A stretch of 20,823 bases of DNA from a virus: positions 1-20,823 of the IMG/VR virus record IMGVR_UViG_3300031873_001254; one strand, 5' to 3'. Both the position numbers and the translations under genes were made by a program. Of this stretch, positions 828-10,838 are shown piece by piece (position 1 is the stretch's first letter; every line of letters starts with the position of its first letter). The notes under the pieces were generated by a model that was not told the DNA's origin, did not search any database, and saw only the letters and a list, made by a program, of their open reading frames with translations.

Positions 828-2915
828 TTATTTTTGTACGCCGATTTTGCCCGTCTTTTTATTGCCATTGCTATCTGTCAGTAAGTAAATATACAATCCC
901 ATGCTTATTGACTCGCCAGACTCGTTCTTCCCATCCCATTCCACATTACTACTATCAAGACTATTGATTGACCGAACTAATCTGCCGATAATATCGTATA
1001 TCTCTATTTTGGTATTTTGAGGCAAGTTCCCGAATTTCAGTGTATTGCGTACTGATTTTGAGAAATTAATCGGATTCGGATAGACCCGAAATTCAGATAA
1101 ACCAGAAGACGATAGCGCACCGATATTATAGGTAGAGAAATGTCCGACCTGCGCTTTTATAACCTTTCTCTCTTTATCAATCTCATTGCAACCGCCATCA
1201 TTAACTTTTTCCCAACATTCAGTATCTTCGTTCAATCGGCAGACCTTGAGGTCGTCAACTTTTATACAGGTACCATCAACAACATCGTCATTATCATCAT
1301 CAGTATACGGTATCTCAATAGTCACCAAATCATCAAAATCGCCATAATCAGAACCATCGTCTTTTTTGCACTCAAATCCTCTGACCTTATCCTCGCACAT
1401 ACTGTCTACTGCTTTATCATTCGCATGATTAACTTTATCTTTTGTTTCATCTGATAATTCGTCTCCGGTCTTAATCATAAGCTGGACATCCCCAGAAACC
1501 GCATCAGGCGGGATAACAACCTGTGTATTAGGGTCTTCGCTAGCAACAATCGTTCCGCCATTCTTCCCATATACCAAGACCGCAACATTAATCTGAATAT
1601 CTTGAGATAACTGCAAAGCAGTGACATTTATTGTATTGATTCCGGGTTTACCATTATCATCAAAAAACTTTATTTTAATTTTGCCAGTGACATCGCTCTC
1701 GCCTTCCTCTTTATCGAGTCTACCTTTACCTTTGTTGACTTTGAATTGTATCTTGATGCTTTTTATGCGATTACTATATATATCCCACAAACATGATGTG
1801 ATGTCTGACGATTGCCCAGATATGATAGAGGAAGGACTAGCTTCTACATCCATATCAACCAATGTCCCCGCCATAATAGTTAATGTATTACTTAATGCAA
1901 CTTTCCCATCATAGGAAAACTTTATTTTAATATCTTCTGCTTTCGTATAAGCATAATGTAACAATATTGAATTACCTTCATATGTTTTAGGGGATGTAAC
2001 ACGCAGAACATCTGAACCCGTAAGTGATTCGTCAGATGCGAGTATGGGTTGAATTAAAGCACTATCGTCTAAATTAAAAGGAATTGTAACACCTGCGGAA
2101 TCTTTGCCCGTTACAGTTACAGGAAAACTTGTGCCTGCCGTAACTGTGCTATCAACAGACACTACGAAATAGTCAACATCAGTCAATGGTTTCGCTTTGA
2201 CAGATATTCTATCACTTAACGATGTTGTCCCATTGCTTACAATTTTTATCTTAATATCTTCCACTGCTGTATATGAAAGAGTTAAAATTATGGTTGAATC
2301 TCCTCCCCATGTTTTACTCACAATAACTAACATACCAGAAGCTGCTAATGATTCATCGTCCGCATGTACGGCTGTAATTAAAGCATCCGTGGAAAGCATA
2401 AGACTTAATATCGTTGCACCTTCTTTATTTTTGGGTATTGTAGTCACAGGAAAATGGGTTTTTTCTGTAACCGAATTTGCAACAGATATTTCATAATGGT
2501 CAACCTCACGAGACTGCACATAGGAACTTACTGTGTCTGATATTATAGTCACATCTGGGTCATAATCCATGATTTTTATGGCATAGTAATTAGTGGCTCC
2601 ATAATCACCTTCATCAGGAGTAACAGATATTTCCCAATTATCAGTAACCGCTAAATGTGAAACAGTATCGGTTTCACCATTAGTAAAATCACTTTCAACA
2701 ATAGGATTAGTTGAATGTGCTAATACAAAATATCCGCTATCGCCATAACCATAACCCTCAACAGATACCGTTACAGAAACAATAGCAGGGTTTCCGGTAC
2801 TATCTAAACCTTCCTGCAACGATAATGAAGCAGAATAAGGGTCAGATAAAACACATCCAAATGTTACCGATGCTACCGATACAATCAACATCAATCCTGC
2901 AATTACTTTTTTCAT
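828..2915 (-). CDS. Secreted multidomain protein with T9SS type A sorting domain
   Basis: A 695-residue protein with an N-terminal signal peptide (about residues 1-20; Cys21 might form an atypical lipobox). Residues about 25-135 form a beta-rich domain. Three imperfect Ig/invasin-like repeats of about 100 residues follow; each has a V-D-x-x-x start and the first two contain an ED-I-K-I-K strand. A segment near residues 455-500 (GGTIV...VVIPPDAVSGDVQL) resembles domains found in surface proteins. A Cys-containing Asp-rich stretch precedes the last 89 residues, which match the T9SS C-terminal sorting domain: VYPNPINF, IEIYDIIGRLV, W-D-G-K, and GLYIYLL near the end. Such proteins cross the outer membrane through T9SS and are anchored or released. 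The start has a strong AAGGAGG. It sits 28 bases downstream of the 2944-3207 gene and directly upstream of the PorV-like gene. Function beyond surface display or adhesion is unknown. Confidence 0.8.
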   Translation of the reverse strand: MKKVIAGLMLIVSVASVTFGCVLSDPYSASLSLQEGLDSTGNPAIVSVTVSVEGYGYGDSGYFVLAHSTNPIVESDFTNGETDTVSHLAVTDNWEISVTPDEGDYGATNYYAIKIMDYDPDVTIISDTVSSYVQSREVDHYEISVANSVTEKTHFPVTTIPKNKEGATILSLMLSTDALITAVHADDESLAASGMLVIVSKTWGGDSTIILTLSYTAVEDIKIKIVSNGTTSLSDRISVKAKPLTDVDYFVVSVDSTVTAGTSFPVTVTGKDSAGVTIPFNLDDSALIQPILASDESLTGSDVLRVTSPKTYEGNSILLHYAYTKAEDIKIKFSYDGKVALSNTLTIMAGTLVDMDVEASPSSIISGQSSDITSCLWDIYSNRIKSIKIQFKVNKGKGRLDKEEGESDVTGKIKIKFFDDNGKPGINTINVTALQLSQDIQINVAVLVYGKNGGTIVASEDPNTQVVIPPDAVSGDVQLMIKTGDELSDETKDKVNHANDKAVDSMCEDKVRGFECKKDDGSDYGDFDDLVTIEIPYTDDDNDDVVDGTCIKVDDLKVCRLNEDTECWEKVNDGGCNEIDKERKVIKAQVGHFSTYNIGALSSSGLSEFRVYPNPINFSKSVRNTLKFGNLPQNTKIEIYDIIGRLVRSINSLDSSNVEWDGKNESGESISMGLYIYLLTDSNGNKKTGKIGVQK

Positions 2916-2943
2916 ACAGCCTCCTTTGTATTTGTTTTATCTT

Positions 2944-3207
2944 TTATCTATACCAGCGTTGTTCCCATGCTATTATCTTATATTCAACTAACGCTTTCTT
3001 GACTGCCACCCGGGCTGTGTACCCGTTCTTATTGAGCCAGTCAGGGGTAACACCTATATTCAATAACTCCTGCAACTCATTCTCACAGAATCTCAATATC
3101 CATTTATAACGAACCGCACAGGCAAGCCCATCTTTACAGTTGCACTGTTTATACTTATACTCAATCACCGCAAGAATCTTTTCAACCCGCTCTTTGGAAA
3201 AACCCAT
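2944..3207 (-). CDS. Small hypothetical protein (87 aa)
   Basis: I do not recognise the family. The protein is basic and largely helical, with Cys at CNC (residues 22-24), GLAC and RFC, and several Trp/Tyr residues toward the C-terminus (W-E-Q-R-W-Y-R). The start is supported by a Shine-Dalgarno formed by TAAGGAG, in which the TAA is the stop codon of the upstream DUF932 gene. The two are therefore tightly coupled in one operon. No signal peptide or membrane segment is seen. The even, clustered Cys might suggest metal binding, but there is no clear CxxC pair arrangement. Confidence 0.65.
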   Translation of the reverse strand: MGFSKERVEKILAVIEYKYKQCNCKDGLACAVRYKWILRFCENELQELLNIGVTPDWLNKNGYTARVAVKKALVEYKIIAWEQRWYR

Positions 3208-5448: not shown

Positions 5449-5477
5449 TTGACAAAAACCGTCAGGTCTGATACAAT
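5449..5477 (+). promoter_or_regulatory. Strong extended -10 sigma70-type promoter of the plus-strand island
   Basis: The -35 TTGACA (5449-5454), a 17-base spacer and the -10 TACAAT (5472-5477) are visible, with a TGN extension just before the -10. It lies 114 bases before the ATG of the 5591 gene, which leaves an untranslated leader of about 105 bases. It is the only convincing plus-strand promoter seen in the window. Confidence 0.8.
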
Positions 5478-5590: not shown

Positions 5591-6178
5591 ATGCAACCGA
5601 AATTAGAATCAATAGCACTGAAGGCACAAGTTGTTCTTAAAGGCGCAAGCCCGTTGTTGATGCACAGACCGACAACGGCGGATTTTTTGAAAGAGGTCGG
5701 TATCCACAAAGGCACAATGCCTACCCCCGAACAGGAAGCTCTCGCAGGAGCTTATTGGAGAGGGAACAAACCAAATACAGAGTTGATAATCCCGGCAAAT
5801 TGTTTTATCCAGTCTTTTATTAACGCATCAAAAATGCTTAAAACGACTGGCAGGAAAACATTGTGCGGTAATTTCATCAATTCTTGTCCGCTGATTACCC
5901 CAATGGAAATTGGTCTTGGCAAAAAAGAATATGTTGTTGATACGCAAACTGTTGTATTGCAGGGCAAAAACCGTATTCCTCGGTCAAGAGCTAGGGTTGA
6001 TGAATGGACGGCAACCTTTACGATTGAATGGGATGGCGAATTTGTATCTGACCACGCCATGGAAGAAGTAATGACTACTTCTGGTCGCAGGGTTGGAATC
6101 CTTGATTATAGACCGCAGAAAAAAGGATTCAACGGAAGATTTGTAGTAGACAAGTTTGAGTTGATAAAGAGTAAATAA
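5591..6178 (+). CDS. Conserved-looking phage protein of unknown function, SPLLM-motif family
   Basis: A 195-residue protein with Shine-Dalgarno AAAGGAG 8 bases before the ATG. I cannot assign a function. It begins with a beta-strand motif KAQVVLKGASPLLMHR, followed by PTPEQEALAGAYWR, a helix PANCFIQSFINASKML, YVVDTQTVVLQGKNRIPRSRARVDEW and GRRVGILDYRPQKKG. The strand-glycine-SPLLMHR opening, basic central strand and glycine-rich end vaguely recall RAMP/Cas7-like RRM folds that bind nucleic acid, but this is only a resemblance. It is the first gene after the plus-strand promoter and is closed by an intrinsic terminator, so it may be expressed as a strong single-gene transcript. A short relative of its N-terminus lies at 6350-6535. 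Confidence 0.6.
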   Translation: MQPKLESIALKAQVVLKGASPLLMHRPTTADFLKEVGIHKGTMPTPEQEALAGAYWRGNKPNTELIIPANCFIQSFINASKMLKTTGRKTLCGNFINSCPLITPMEIGLGKKEYVVDTQTVVLQGKNRIPRSRARVDEWTATFTIEWDGEFVSDHAMEEVMTTSGRRVGILDYRPQKKGFNGRFVVDKFELIKSK

Positions 6179-6188
6179 ACATATTGAA

Positions 6189-6232
6189 CCTAGCGGGGAA
6201 GAATTATCATCTCGACCCCGCTGGGTTTTTTT
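6189..6232 (+). terminator. Intrinsic terminator after the 5591 gene
   Basis: CCTAGCGGGG (6189-6198) pairs with CCCCGCTGGG (6216-6225), ten pairs including one G-T, with a 17-base loop and then seven T. It lies 10 bases after the stop codon. The downstream genes at 6350 and 6653 therefore need read-through or another promoter that I cannot identify. Confidence 0.85.
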
Positions 6233-6252
6233 GTTTGAATAAGATTTATTAT

Positions 6253-6325
6253 GGTATGGTGCGGTATGGTACGGTATGGCTCGGTGCGGCAAGGTTGGGT
6301 CCGGTAGGGTAAGGTAGGGTAGGGG
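6253..6325 (+). repeat. GGTNN pentamer array 1 (15 units)
   Basis: Fifteen consecutive units of GG(T/C)NN keep an exact 5-base phase (GGT at 6253, 6258 and so on to 6323) without any insertion or deletion. The two N positions vary freely. Units 6 and 8 have GGC. The array closes with GGTAG, GGTAG, GGGG and then T6, and 24 bases later the 6350 gene starts, so the array lies in that gene's 5' region directly before its Shine-Dalgarno. Confidence 0.9.
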
Positions 6326-6349
6326 TTTTTTATTCAAAGGAGAATAACT

Positions 6350-6535
6350 ATGAAAAAATTCAAGGATACAACTATGAAGGCAATCGTTACTATCAGAGGA
6401 ATTAGCCCTTTATTGATGGGAAAATCACAATTCAAAGATATACATTGGGATTTCCCATTTGTTTCTCCTTACGAAACTCATTGGTGTGGTACTTGTGAAC
6501 AAGAAAGGCAAAAAAATAAAAACAAAATTATGTAA
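6350..6535 (+). CDS. Short (61 aa) N-terminal relative of the 5591 protein, probably a remnant
   Basis: Residues about 6-22 read MKAIVTIRGISPLLMGK, matching KAQVVLKGASPLLMHR of the 5591 protein (KA.V...G.SPLLM). After this the sequence diverges and stops within about 40 residues; the tail contains HWCGTC and a Lys-rich end. It is about one third of the length of its relative, so it looks like a truncated or decayed paralogue, although it keeps an excellent Shine-Dalgarno (AAGGAG, 7-base spacing). It is framed by GGTNN arrays on both sides. It could alternatively be a functional mini-protein. Confidence 0.5.
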   Translation: MKKFKDTTMKAIVTIRGISPLLMGKSQFKDIHWDFPFVSPYETHWCGTCEQERQKNKNKIM

Positions 6536-6545
6536 ATTATATTGA

Positions 6546-6628
6546 GGTATGGTTAGGTCCGGTCGGGTGAGGTGATGTACGGTAAGGTTGTGTATGGTAC
6601 GGTGTGGCAGGGCGAGGTAGGGTAGGGT
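6546..6628 (+). repeat. GGTNN pentamer array 2 (17 units)
   Basis: Seventeen units in perfect 5-base phase from 6546 to 6628. Units 7 and 10 begin TGT instead of GGT. The array ends GGTAG GGTAG GGTTT, then T-rich sequence and the leader ATTCAAAGGAG, nearly the same leader as after array 1. It starts about 10 bases after the stop of the 6350 gene and ends 25 bases before the ParB-like start. Confidence 0.9.
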
Positions 6629-6652
6629 TTTTATTCAAAGGAGGATAATTAT

Positions 6653-7336
6653 ATGATATTGAGGGATGTTTTAATTAAAGATTTGATTGAGGATTTAACA
6701 CTTTATCCGAGGGACGAAGTCAATTGGATGACTATTGTTCGTTACAAAGACAATATGCAAACAGGTTCCATATTCCCGCCAGTAATCGTAGCAAAATATA
6801 AAAATAAATTTGTCCTTATCGATGGTTTCCATCGAGTTGCAGCCTGCCGACGACTTAACATTGAAAGAATCAAAGCCGAGGTCTTTCGGGGACTCACAAA
6901 AGAACAGATGTATCTTAAAGGCGTTGAGGCAAATGCAAAAAACGCAAGACCGTTCTCATCAAAGGAATTGCGTCAGATTGTCTTGAAATGCCGTAACGAC
7001 TACAAGATGCCAGACAATGAGATATCAATGATTGTTTGTATCCCCGAAGAAAGATTGTCGGTATTTATGGCTGACCGGTTGGCAGTGACGCAGGCGGACG
7101 AAGTGTTTGTTTTGAAATCGCAACTGAAACATTTGGCTGGCACAACGGTAAGCGAAACATTTCAAAATGAACAACGAATATATTCAGCACATTGCCAGCT
7201 TACATTTCTTGAGGAGTTCATTTATTTGCTTGAACATAATCATCTTGATTTGAAGAATGAAGAGATAAAAGAAAAGGTTGATAGGATATTAAAACTTTTG
7301 AAAGAGAAGATACAATTACTCTGGATAATTGAATAA
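6653..7336 (+). CDS. ParB-like nuclease (ParB/Srx fold) domain protein
   Basis: A 227-residue protein. Residues 15-80 show the ParB/sulfiredoxin fold: Y-P-R-D-E-V at the start, FPPVIVAKYKNKFVLIDGFHR (DGxHR at 57-61) followed by VAACRRL and a strand KAEVF. Residues about 95-155 are helical with ARPFSSKELRQIV and an EISMIVCIPEERLSVFM segment that may be a helix-turn-helix, as in ParB DNA-binding domains. The C-terminus (190-225) is a Lys/Glu-rich helix that could dimerise. Stand-alone phage ParB-like proteins act as DNA binders, nucleases or NTP-binding partition factors; the role here is open. No ParA partner is in the window. A 5' array and a downstream cluster of arrays flank the gene, so these repeats are candidate binding sites. 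Confidence 0.7.
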   Translation: MILRDVLIKDLIEDLTLYPRDEVNWMTIVRYKDNMQTGSIFPPVIVAKYKNKFVLIDGFHRVAACRRLNIERIKAEVFRGLTKEQMYLKGVEANAKNARPFSSKELRQIVLKCRNDYKMPDNEISMIVCIPEERLSVFMADRLAVTQADEVFVLKSQLKHLAGTTVSETFQNEQRIYSAHCQLTFLEEFIYLLEHNHLDLKNEEIKEKVDRILKLLKEKIQLLWIIE

Positions 7337-7347
7337 ATTATTCAGAG
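7319..7347 (+). other. Hairpin at the end of the ParB-like gene (copy 1)
   Basis: CTCTGGATAATT pairs with AATTATTCAGAG around a 5-base loop: twelve pairs, one of them G-T. It spans the last codons and the stop of the ParB-like gene. No T-run follows on the plus strand, so it is not an ordinary terminator. A diverged copy lies at 7569-7597. Confidence 0.6.
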
Positions 7348-7350
7348 CAG

Positions 7351-7433
7351 GGTATGGTCGGGTCGGGCGAGGTGCGGTGGTGTCAGGCTTGGTATGGTCC
7401 GGTGGGGTTGGATATGGTTAGGTAGGGTAGGGT
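7351..7433 (+). repeat. GGTNN pentamer array 3 (17 units)
   Basis: Seventeen units in phase from 7351. Unit 7 is TGTCA and unit 13 is GATAT. It closes GGTAG GGTAG GGTTT. The next 40 bases are AT-rich (TTTTGCAATCATTTAT...) and hold no gene. The first three units resemble those of array 5, matching the copied hairpin that precedes both. Confidence 0.9.
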
Positions 7434-7473
7434 TTTGCAATCATTTATCTTAAAATATATAATTTTATAATAA

Positions 7474-7541
7474 GGTCCGGCGTGGTGAGGCTGGGTGCGG
7501 CGATGCTGGGTTTGGTATGGTAAGGTAGGGTAGGGTGAGGC
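7474..7541 (+). repeat. GGTNN pentamer array 4 (14 units)
   Basis: Fourteen units in phase, with GGC in units 2, 4, 6 and 14 and TGC in unit 7. The closing units are GGTAG GGTAG GGTGA GGCTT, followed by TTTTGCAATCATAAATT, an AT-rich spacer like the others. No gene follows. Confidence 0.9.
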
Positions 7542-7568
7542 TTTTTGCAATCATAAATTTTATAATTA

Positions 7569-7597
7569 CTCTGGATAGTTTAATAGACTGTTCAGAG
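7569..7597 (+). other. Hairpin copy 2 (duplicated end of the ParB-like gene)
   Basis: The 48 bases from about 7562 to 7610 align with 7312-7360 (gene end, hairpin and array start) with only a few changes. The stem is kept: stem position 10/20 changes from A-T to G-C, and two other changes turn T-A pairs into T-G. There is no reading frame here, so this appears to be a duplicated gene end without the gene. Confidence 0.6.
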
Positions 7598-7600
7598 CGG

Positions 7601-7669
7601 GGTATGGTCAGGTCGGGTGGTGTCGGGTGCGGTAGTGTTTGGTCGGGTAAGGTAGGGTAGGGTAGGGGC
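7601..7669 (+). repeat. GGTNN pentamer array 5 (14 units)
   Basis: Fourteen units in phase. Units 5 and 8 begin TGT. It ends with three GGTAG units, then GGGCT and a T-run. The spacer after it (CTCCAATAACAATTTTTTCA) is of a second spacer type, shared in part with the one at 8241-8260. Confidence 0.9.
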
Positions 7670-7695
7670 TTTTTCTCCAATAACAATTTTTTCAG

Positions 7696-7773
7696 GGTTA
7701 GGTACGGTAGGGTGTGGTGTGGCGATGTATGGTTGGGTCTGGTTGGTCCCGGTAGGGTAAGGTAAGGTAGGGC
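7696..7773 (+). repeat. GGTNN pentamer array 6 (16 units)
   Basis: Sixteen units in phase. Unit 7 is TGTAT and unit 11 (7746-7750) has lost the GGT pattern by substitution, yet the phase is kept. It closes GGTAA GGTAA GGTAG GGCTT, followed by the spacer TGCAATCATTTATAATTTAT. Confidence 0.9.
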
Positions 7774-7803
7774 TTTGCAATCATTTATAATTTATAAAAA
7801 TAG

Positions 7804-7871
7804 GGTTGGGTAAGGTTGGGTCCGGTTTGGTCAGGTAAGGTTAGGTCAGGTGATGTCAGGTAGGGTAGGGC
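7804..7871 (+). repeat. GGTNN pentamer array 7 (14 units)
   Basis: Fourteen units in phase. The only departure from GG is TGTCA in unit 11. It ends GGTAG GGTAG GGCTT, then an AT-rich spacer of about 35 bases without coding potential. Confidence 0.9.
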
Positions 7872-7906
7872 TTTTGTTATTATTTATAATTTTTAATAAA
7901 CAATCT

Positions 7907-7979
7907 GGTCGGGTATGGTATGGTTAGGTATGGTTGAGTAAGGTCCGGTTGGGTATGGTCAGGTAGGGTGAGGTAGGGC
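7907..7979 (+). repeat. GGTNN pentamer array 8 (15 units)
   Basis: Fifteen units in phase. Unit 7 is AGTAA. It ends GGTAG GGTGA GGTAG GGCTT, then the spacer TTTTGCAATTATTTCTTAAC. Confidence 0.9.
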
Positions 7980-8012
7980 TTTTTGCAATTATTTCTTAAC
8001 CAATTTTTTTAA

Positions 8013-8080
8013 GGTAGGGTTTGGTTTGGTGTGGCGGTGTGTGGTGATGTGTGGTCCGGCGGGATAGGGTAGGGTAGGGT
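8013..8080 (+). repeat. GGTNN pentamer array 9 (14 units)
   Basis: Fourteen units in phase. Units 6 and 8 are both TGTGT and unit 11 is GATAG. It ends GGTAG GGTAG GGTTT followed by TTTGCAATTATTTATAAATT, the clearest copy of the AT-rich spacer. Confidence 0.9.
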
Positions 8081-8111
8081 TTTTGCAATTATTTATAAAT
8101 TATAAAAATAT

Positions 8112-8149
8112 GGTGCGGTGAGGTCAGGTACGGTCGGGTCTGGTAGGGT
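8112..8149 (+). repeat. GGTNN pentamer array 10 (8 units, short)
   Basis: Eight units in phase, with GGT intact in all of them, closing GGTAG GGTTT and then GCAATTATCATC. It is about half the usual length, as if the middle had been lost in a multiple of five bases. Confidence 0.85.
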
Positions 8150-8190
8150 TTGCAATTATCATCATTTTTTTTATATACTTTATCCATTAA

Positions 8191-8238
8191 GGTAGGGTAA
8201 TGTCAGGTGTGGTAATGTAGGGTAGGGTTTGGTAGGGT
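8191..8238 (+). repeat. GGTNN pentamer array 11 (10 units)
   Basis: Ten units in phase. Units 3 and 6 begin TGT. The closing pair GGTAG GGTTT appears twice in succession. The spacer after it contains CCATAACAATTTTTT, like the one after array 5. Confidence 0.85.
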
Positions 8239-8263
8239 TTTCTTTCCCATAACAATTTTTTGC

Positions 8264-8278
8264 GGTGAGGTAAGGAAG
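8264..8278 (+). repeat. Vestigial GGTNN array 12 (3 units)
   Basis: GGTGA GGTAA GGAAG in phase, directly before the leader and Shine-Dalgarno of the 8315 gene. This is the same position that arrays 1 and 2 hold relative to their genes, which suggests a worn-down copy. Confidence 0.5.
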
Positions 8279-8314
8279 GCGAATTATACAAAGACAAAGG
8301 GGAGGTGAATTGTA

Positions 8315-8540: not shown

Positions 8541-8595
8541 GGTCTGGTTTTGTAGTATGTGGTAATGCAAGGCGATGTAATGCAATGCAATGAAA
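8541..8595 (+). repeat. Degenerate pentamer array 13 (11 units, drifting to TGYAA)
   Basis: From 8541 the 5-base period continues for eleven units, but the unit changes from GGTNN to TGTAA/TGCAA/TGAAA along the array; three units are TGCAA. A few pentamers just upstream (TGTAA AGCAA AGTGA) are in the same phase. It lies between the 8315 gene and the terminator. It is probably an old, mutated array, or a relative with a different unit. Confidence 0.6.
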
Positions 8596-8616: not shown

Positions 8617-8652
8617 AAATCGGCGGATAGGTTAATGCCTTTTCGCCGATTT
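8617..8652. terminator. Bidirectional intrinsic terminator between convergent genes
   Basis: AAATCGGCG (8617-8625) pairs perfectly with CGCCGATTT (8644-8652) around an 18-base loop, with T-rich sequence on the plus side and a weaker T-containing tail on the minus side. It closes the plus-strand island and the leftward tail/lysis block, whose last stop codon overlaps the right arm. Confidence 0.75.
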
Positions 8653-9392
8653 TATTTACCGAAGCTCTTCCATATACCCGCAAATACCCCTAACGATATC
8701 CATTGTCTGTAAAATCCCTGCATCAATAATTGAGCCGACCGCACATCGCAGGTGCTTCCGCATCTCAAAATTATCGACGGAATATCTATCAATGTATTAT
8801 GTTTCAAATCATTATTTTCAGTCATATAGCTAACACCTTTGACGGCAGACCTCGTGCGATGAGCGACTTCATCAAGAATATTATTAGCAATTTCCTCGCT
8901 CCCTGCTACTTTATTACATACGGCTTCGAGACCGCTATCAGCAACATAAGCGGTTACGTCGAATGTCAACAAGAGGTCAACTTCAAGAAATTTCGCATAA
9001 TTCAAACGAGCATTTTGGTCTTGTTCTAATATAGTATCACCTTCAGAATAAATACTAGCAGGGATATATTTTTTTTCCTTCATATTTCCTTCGTAAGTAA
9101 CAACTGATTTCAAATATTGAATAGCACACTCTCGATAGCGAGGCTGCTGTGATTCACCCATCGAATTTGCGTTCCCATATCCTTTATAGACTTTATTCAA
9201 TAACCTTGTAGAATAAACCTTACACCCAACGGTTTTTAATAAATCACATAACGGAATTGAAACATCAATGACGAGCGAATCGATGTAAAGTCCATTAATC
9301 ACCGGCTTCTGATAAATCCATTGTTTAACATCCGCATTGAAATACAATCCGCCTACTGGATTAATTAGAATCTTTTTGTCTTTGCACCCCAT
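8652..9392 (-). CDS. Amidase_3-fold protein lacking the zinc ligands (probably inactive)
   Basis: The 246-residue chain follows the layout of N-acetylmuramoyl-L-alanine amidase family 3. It has a first strand ending NPVGG (11-15, in place of DPGHGG), a helix then GCKVYSTR (57-63, like G-x-x-V-x-x-TR), and NARLNYAKFLEVDLLLTFD (127-145, like R...AN...ADL-SIH). A G-x-E helix and SEEIANNILDEV (165-176) come next, then VKGVSY, DIPSIILRCG (203-212, in place of PAVLVE-GF), and a C-terminal A-I-x-x-G-I-like helix. All expected catalytic positions are replaced: no His at 11-15, Asp in place of the second His, Arg in place of the last Glu. The whole protein has only two His, neither in place. It may bind peptidoglycan or act structurally. 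It is last in the lysis region; the start has GGGAGG. Confidence 0.6.
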   Translation of the reverse strand: MGCKDKKILINPVGGLYFNADVKQWIYQKPVINGLYIDSLVIDVSIPLCDLLKTVGCKVYSTRLLNKVYKGYGNANSMGESQQPRYRECAIQYLKSVVTYEGNMKEKKYIPASIYSEGDTILEQDQNARLNYAKFLEVDLLLTFDVTAYVADSGLEAVCNKVAGSEEIANNILDEVAHRTRSAVKGVSYMTENNDLKHNTLIDIPSIILRCGSTCDVRSAQLLMQGFYRQWISLGVFAGIWKSFGK

Positions 9393-10097: not shown

Positions 10098-10838
10098 TTA
10101 TAAACATGACCTGAAGTAATCAGTATTCCAGAATTTACCCGGACATTGCTTCTGTCTAGGCACATTCATCTTATCATAAACTTCCCGATGCCCTATCACA
10201 TTAGCTATTGGGATTGAAAATGTATCCACAAATGTTCTCGTCACCATTAATGCAAACTCCCATAACATACGAGGCACTTGGTTTTTGTCAAAATCACCGA
10301 TTGCACATAACCCCAGATAATTCTCATTGAACTCTTTATATCCTGCGTGTGTGCCAATCATTGATAAAGGTCTGCCATATTTGAATATGTATTTATCATC
10401 TATTGATTCAATTAATCCATGATATCCCACATCCATCCATGCCAGTTCAAAATATCGTTTATCAGCAGGATTAGCTTCTTTCTTTTTTAGCTCTGCAAAA
10501 TAATAATCATATTCAGGTTTTTTATACCATTCGCCATTTTTATATTTCACATATTCTATGCCCGATAACTTTTCCTTTTGAGGCTCTGCCACTGCATTGA
10601 AATCAATCCTGAACGATTTGTGATATTTGATGACACCATCAATATTATTATGAACTAAATCATCTCTTGTAGCTGAATGATGCCAAACAATCCCCAACCA
10701 TTTTCTCGATGTAGATATATCAATCGACAGTGTTAATCGTGGTTTCTTCGGAATATAAATCACTGGTTTTGGTTTCGGTACTACTGGTACAATTATAGCA
10801 TTCTGTATCAATCCTTTGAAAAAACTAACAAGATTCAT
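10098..10838 (-). CDS. N-acetylmuramoyl-L-alanine amidase (Amidase_2), endolysin
   Basis: A 246-residue protein with the Amidase_2/PGRP fold found in T7 lysozyme-type endolysins. It has IVWHHSAT (50-57, first zinc His at 53), MDVGYHGLIE (135-144), GTHAGYKEFNENYLGLCAIGDF (162-183), and IGHREV (215-220, His217) with CPGKFW (232-237, Cys232 as third ligand). The enzyme would cut the bond between N-acetylmuramate and L-Ala in host peptidoglycan. Residues about 80-130 are an insertion rich in Lys and Tyr. The N-terminus (5-30) is hydrophobic and Pro-rich but not a clear signal peptide, so export may rely on a holin. The start follows AAAGGAG. It is downstream of the tail fibre gene in the same leftward block. 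Confidence 0.85.
   Translation of the reverse strand: MNLVSFFKGLIQNAIIVPVVPKPKPVIYIPKKPRLTLSIDISTSRKWLGIVWHHSATRDDLVHNNIDGVIKYHKSFRIDFNAVAEPQKEKLSGIEYVKYKNGEWYKKPEYDYYFAELKKKEANPADKRYFELAWMDVGYHGLIESIDDKYIFKYGRPLSMIGTHAGYKEFNENYLGLCAIGDFDKNQVPRMLWEFALMVTRTFVDTFSIPIANVIGHREVYDKMNVPRQKQCPGKFWNTDYFRSCL

Follow-up and report, generated by a model that had tools for sequence, protein, structure and literature searches.

The DNA analysed here, a stretch of 20,823 nucleotides (positions 1 to 20,823 of IMG/VR record IMGVR_UViG_3300031873_001254; hereafter, the window), very probably carries a VIPR locus on the genome of a tailed phage. VIPR is an RNA-guided DNA-binding relative of CRISPR that was first described in a 2026 preprint, where it is proposed as ancestral to CRISPR (PMC13142463), and our literature search found no other paper describing it. 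In the published system, Vipr, a phage-encoded ancestral RAMP protein, coats guide RNAs (vrRNAs), in which 9–16 GGY/NN units are followed by a constant tail. DNA is recognized through the NN pairs, a single base being skipped between successive pairs; phages use the system to silence competing phages, and a DNA-interacting accessory gene, vap, lies beside vipr (PMC13142463). The window contains a Vipr-related RAMP homologue, vrRNA arrays of alternating GGY and NN, and a conserved 3' tail, and its locus represents a new, deeply divergent and intact-looking example of VIPR with about 11 guides. The repeat code, traced here from raw sequence alone, is seen in a phage lineage far from characterised VIPR, and the locus offers a compact multi-guide system in which to study how accessory proteins extend silencing.

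Organization of the locus and its arrays

The arrays are carried on a plus-strand island at 5.5–8.6 kb, and the baseplate and tail gene block occupies the minus strand. The order within the island is a promoter-like site, vipr, a terminator-like hairpin, guide 1, a 61-aa ORF, guide 2, a ParB-like gene and guides 3–11, and its features are as follows.

5449–5477, plus strand: candidate sigma-70-like promoter upstream of vipr (TTGACA-17-TACAAT, 11/12, with TG before the second hexamer; consensus match only)
5591–6178, plus strand: vipr, encoding a 195-aa RAMP (Cas7/Csm3-like) protein (homology, AlphaFold2 model)
6186–6233, plus strand: terminator-like hairpin and T run after vipr (RNA fold of 6160–6240, z -5.7; terminator scan)
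6253–6334, plus strand: vrRNA 1, 14 units and a T-rich tail that reaches into the ribosome site of the 61-aa ORF
6350–6535, plus strand: 61-aa ORF with the Vipr N-terminal motif VTIRGISPLLM (the profile match is weak, with 13 bits across 24 residues)
6546–6634, plus strand: vrRNA 2, 16 units and a tail of the vrRNA 1 type that reaches into the ParB-like gene's ribosome site
6653–7336, plus strand: candidate accessory gene (vap), 227 aa, ParB/Noc-like (phrog_1033 match; AlphaFold2 model)
7319–7347, plus strand: 12-bp hairpin immediately upstream of vrRNA 3 (-13.7 kcal/mol, z -7.1)
7351–7440, plus strand: vrRNA 3, 16 units and tail
7474–7555, plus strand: vrRNA 4, 13 units and tail
7569–7597, plus strand: 13-bp hairpin immediately upstream of vrRNA 5 (-15.3 kcal/mol, z -5.2)
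7601–7680, plus strand: vrRNA 5, 13 units and tail
7696–7784, plus strand: vrRNA 6, 15 units and tail
7804–7880, plus strand: vrRNA 7, 13 units and tail
7907–7992, plus strand: vrRNA 8, 14 units and tail
8013–8092, plus strand: vrRNA 9, 13 units and tail
8112–8158, plus strand: vrRNA 10, short, 7 units and tail
8191–8245, plus strand: vrRNA 11, short, 9 units and partial tail
8541–8595, plus strand: degenerate array of KGY units (sequence inspection), probably a decayed vrRNA

Scanning of the window on both strands revealed 11 solid phase-locked GGYNN arrays of 7 to 16 units each between 6253 and 8240, all of them on the plus strand and none on the minus strand. Arrays 1–9 have 13–16 units and fall within the published range of 9–16, whereas arrays 10 and 11 fall short of it once the fixed tail units are set aside. 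The 11 arrays contain 143 in-phase units: 127 have an exact GGY, and the triplet of the other 16 is degenerate but keeps the phase (11 TGT, one TGC, one AGT, two GAT and one GTC). Column entropies over these 143 units are 0.48, 0.17 and 0.46 bit at the triplet positions versus 1.88 and 1.92 bits at NN; that is, the GGY positions are nearly fixed and the NN positions nearly free. Runs of at least six units number 29 in the region 6200–8300 (overlapping count) versus zero in 300 dinucleotide-preserving shuffles, in which not even a five-unit run was found. The entropies and the shuffles bear out the sequence-only reading of this DNA, according to which GG(T/C) and two free bases recur in exact 5-base phase. 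A dozen arrays with about 155 units had been counted in that reading; the coordinates were right, but the array at 8264 turns out to be marginal (2–3 units only), so that 11 are solid, and the unit count is nearer 143. The degenerate array at 8541–8590 (GGTCT GGTTT TGTAG TATGT GGTAA TGCAA GGCGA TGTAA TGCAA TGCAA) had been overlooked. As regards the placement of degenerate units within arrays, a fixed position (unit 7) was rejected because it is not general across 365 arrays, and a location after purine-rich NN is likewise not general in this set, where there is a mild excess after GG, GA, CG and AG only.

The arrays end in a common tail, GGTAGGGTAGGGYTTTTGCAATYAT or a variant of it, and in most arrays the tail comprises GGTAGGGTAGGG, a T run and GCAAT. 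Guides 1 and 2 have the same tail, which in both cases extends into the ribosome site of the gene that follows, and GGTAGGGTAGGGYTTTTGCAATYAT is common to most of the others. RNA folding of the window arrays gave no stable fold for the tail. The hairpins ahead of guides 3 and 5 are homologous to each other; a comparison by eye shows changes at three pairs, each of which remains paired (one double change from A-U to G-C, and two changes from U-A to U-G). Hammerhead ribozymes are interspersed between the vrRNAs in some VIPR arrays. Rfam detected no ribozyme or riboswitch in the window and 18 array loci, and with no Rfam match in the window no hammerhead ribozyme was recognized between its vrRNAs.

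The Vipr protein and its place among known systems

The 195-aa protein of the window belongs to PHROG 4652 (phrog_4652, 1e-14), the function of which is listed as unknown in PHROG, and has no match in Pfam, NCBIfam or PADLOC. Its AlphaFold2 model, based on a 59-sequence alignment, has a pLDDT of 92.7 and a pTM of 0.87, and the best PDB matches of this model are to backbone chains of the Csm3/Cmr4 type and of type VII Cas7 (best E 2.2e-7, probability 1.00, TM about 0.5–0.6). A conserved C-terminal block (G165xxxG169, RP, GRF) is compatible with the glycine-rich loop of RAMP proteins. A profile seeded with the window protein recovered positions 28474–29061 of phage SUSP1 at 7e-46, and GGYNN arrays flank this SUSP1 gene and its neighbour on both sides; judging from the profile match, the size and the flanking arrays, the gene is presumably the published Vipr. 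A tree built from 81 Vipr proteins places SUSP1 in a supported 24-row clade (97/93) and the window Vipr outside that clade on a long branch; by identity, the protein closest to it is that of L108 (34%). Thus, the window Vipr does not appear to group with VIPR type II, which is the SUSP1 clade.

The reference phage SUSP1 has a type II VIPR with four guides, a pseudoknot tail and the accessory gene vap1 (PMC13142463). The window is similar to SUSP1 in having a Vipr of the RAMP family that likewise has 195 aa, GGY/NN arrays on the strand of Vipr, a conserved 3' tail, a small adjoining candidate accessory gene and a tailed-phage carrier. However, the two Vipr proteins are only 18% identical (alignment A1), and the window has about 11 guides rather than four, a short T-rich tail instead of a pseudoknot, a ParB/Noc-like candidate accessory instead of vap1, and hairpins ahead of two of its guides. 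The backbone of class 1 CRISPR-Cas systems (Cas7/Csm3, types III and VII) also has a RAMP fold that coats guide RNA at regular intervals. In contrast, the window locus has a 5-nt pitch and a noncontiguous code and is without CRISPR repeats, spacers and cas genes; a tandem-repeat scan found no CRISPR repeat-spacer array in the window, and no cas family was recognized among the window ORFs scanned. The constraint on spacing proposed in the sequence-only reading is upheld. A multi-subunit RNA-binding protein on a fixed triplet at every fifth nucleotide was one of the options listed there; VIPR has been described in that way, and the arrays adjoin a gene for a RAMP-fold protein. The role that the free NN would have as a guide was missed, and the statement that no family with this unit had been described is out of date, since vrRNAs of alternating GGY/NN are described in PMC13142463. 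Contacts at every half-turn of DNA and G-quadruplexes, which were also proposed, are not needed to explain the data, because the RAMP neighbour and the published system have been found.

It is unlikely that the locus is a relic of VIPR that has lost its activity. Such decay would fit the proportion of non-GGY units (TGY, GAT and others), which is 16 of 143 in the window versus 5.4% of internal units over all loci, together with the shortness of arrays 10 and 11, the decayed array at 8541 and the 61-aa ORF at 6350–6535, which its motif suggests is probably a truncated copy of vipr. However, vipr itself is an intact ORF, with a confident predicted fold and the family-conserved residues W139, G165, G169, R174 and G182 all present, and arrays 1–9 are long, in phase and tailed.

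The trp RNA-binding attenuation protein (TRAP) reads, as a multimer, NAG-NN sites that consist of a fixed triplet and two-base spacers. The GGYNN arrays resemble such sites, and arrays 1 and 2 lie directly ahead of ribosome sites, as though a TRAP-like or DNA-binding regulator recognized GGY every five nucleotides, with NN as a mere spacer, and controlled the phage's own genes. We consider this very improbable, because the neighbouring protein is a RAMP of Cas7/Csm3 fold, unrelated to TRAP, because most window arrays have no gene directly downstream, and because NN is diverse between arrays, as guides would be. The spacers of TRAP sites carry no information, unlike NN, which serves as the guide in VIPR. 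In relatives of the window locus, NN has been shown experimentally to dictate the choice of DNA target (PMC13142463).

Distribution of the arrays in viral genomes

The identification of the window as a VIPR locus is extended by a search of IMG/VR for ten GGY triplets recurring every 5 nt, which matched at least 119 contigs, nearly all of the matches listed having several arrays with diverse NN. Such a pattern search of relatives had been suggested in the sequence-only reading as a check. Using a profile grown from the 195-aa protein of the window and counting one homologue per locus, we found a homologue of the 5591–6178 protein in 85 of 119 array contigs among the matches listed, or 86 loci including the window. 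At the loci with the protein among the matches listed, all 262 arrays of at least eight units are on the strand of the vipr homologue and none on the opposite strand. The median distance from these arrays to the vipr homologue is 232 bp among the matches listed; because the loci were extracted around arrays, this value is biased downward, but the strand agreement is not biased. Based on the strand agreement and the gene association across the 86 loci, the arrays and the RAMP protein form one system. Neutral pentamer slippage or some other simple-repeat artefact, although it would account for a few near-perfect simple repeats among the at least 119 contigs, is extremely improbable as the origin of arrays that have near-random NN and share their strand, the gene beside them and a conserved tail. 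The pattern, its strand and the adjoining gene are conserved across more than 80 divergent phage contigs.

The few simple repeats, near-perfect and with a pentamer or a decamer as unit (L122 at 5147, L129 at 6674, L136 at 9715 and L137 at 12206), satisfy the GGYNN pattern but have neither NN diversity nor a Vipr homologue and are false positives of the pattern search. The other array loci without a vipr homologue may be situated on contigs that end before the gene, or may belong to a more distant type. Very long arrays of 24–42 uninterrupted units, compared with 9–16 units in published vrRNAs, were found in L076, L042, L127 and L092. The Pseudomonas phage vB_Pae_LESphi2 (L270; a prophage of P. 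aeruginosa LESB58) has a Vipr homologue at 2513–3097, annotated as 'hypothetical protein'; a GGYNN array of 10 units lies immediately upstream of it, at 2351–2400. In phage DSL-LC04 (OR003939.1, 22435–22968), a Vipr homologue bears the annotation 'helix-turn-helix transcriptional regulator'.

Candidate accessory gene, proposed mechanism and phage context

The 227-aa protein encoded between guides 2 and 3 matches phrog_1033 at 7.5e-13, and its AlphaFold2 model, of moderate confidence (pLDDT 72), matches ParB/Noc CTPase structures (E 5e-8). It is comparable to the ParB/Noc CTPase clamps in its fold and in its position beside a DNA-targeting element, but a DGFHR motif stands where ParB has the GERR box. 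The family of this protein also adjoins Vipr in L130, L097 and L087, making four loci with the window; tblastn did not find the protein in named phages, and a peptide scan of viral contigs confirmed no relatives. We judge that the ParB-like protein is probably a VIPR accessory (vap). The accessory genes of published VIPR systems are numbered vap1–6, the main text of PMC13142463 contains no mention of ParB, and the candidate accessory of ParB/Noc fold and the guide-leading hairpin are potentially new. A more specific and rather doubtful proposal is that the window represents a VIPR subtype in which the accessory is a ParB/Noc-like CTP-dependent DNA clamp and the hairpin before two guides is a separate guide-processing element. 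If the clamp reading were true, Vipr-vrRNA would act as a programmable parS that loads a sliding clamp onto the target DNA, and the clamp would spread, silencing a whole region instead of one site.

By analogy with the published system, each array with its T-rich tail would be transcribed as a short guide RNA (vrRNA), along which copies of Vipr would line up and form a ribonucleoprotein (PMC13142463). In our view there would probably be one Vipr per pentamer, gripping the fixed GGY and leaving NN free to pair. The complex would then bind double-stranded DNA whose sequence agrees with the NN pairs when a single base is skipped from one pair to the next, and the target gene would be repressed, as in the published silencing (PMC13142463); this gene would probably belong to a competing phage, prophage or satellite. 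As vap, the ParB-like protein would probably strengthen binding or silencing.

Exact 8-unit cores of guides 1, 3, 6, 7 and 8 were run through IMG/VR under the 1-nt skip rule, and yielded chance-level hits, none of which extends convincingly into the flanking units. The best match (10/14), for guide 8, is in L250/L262, and about one such match is estimated to occur by chance. No self-target above chance was present in the window, and a pooled test of skip lengths 0–3 on 1.15 Mb of loci, which is underpowered, gave no clear winner. No target was found for the five guides, and we therefore infer targeting by the window locus from homology.

Two proteins encoded on the minus strand within positions 1–2915 of the window, an outer-membrane protein of the PorV/PorQ family and another that carries a type IX-like C-terminal sorting domain, are unusual beside phage genes and are possibly host flank or cargo. 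The PorV-family gene and the type IX-like sorting tail suggest that the host may be a Bacteroidota-like or related bacterium. A search for the host by way of the PorV-like gene led only to a gene of 35% identity in a metagenome-assembled genome (MAG), and six genomes of the phylum of that MAG contained no guide 3 target when up to three mismatches were allowed. The window has no DNA similarity to named phages, and peptide scans of viral contigs and of genome contigs confirmed no relatives of its baseplate protein. The minus strand also encodes a DUF932/TIGR03299 phage-plasmid protein (3218–4171, E 2e-77) and two different amidase-like lysis candidates, at 8652–9392 (weak Amidase_3 match) and 10098–10838 (Amidase_2).
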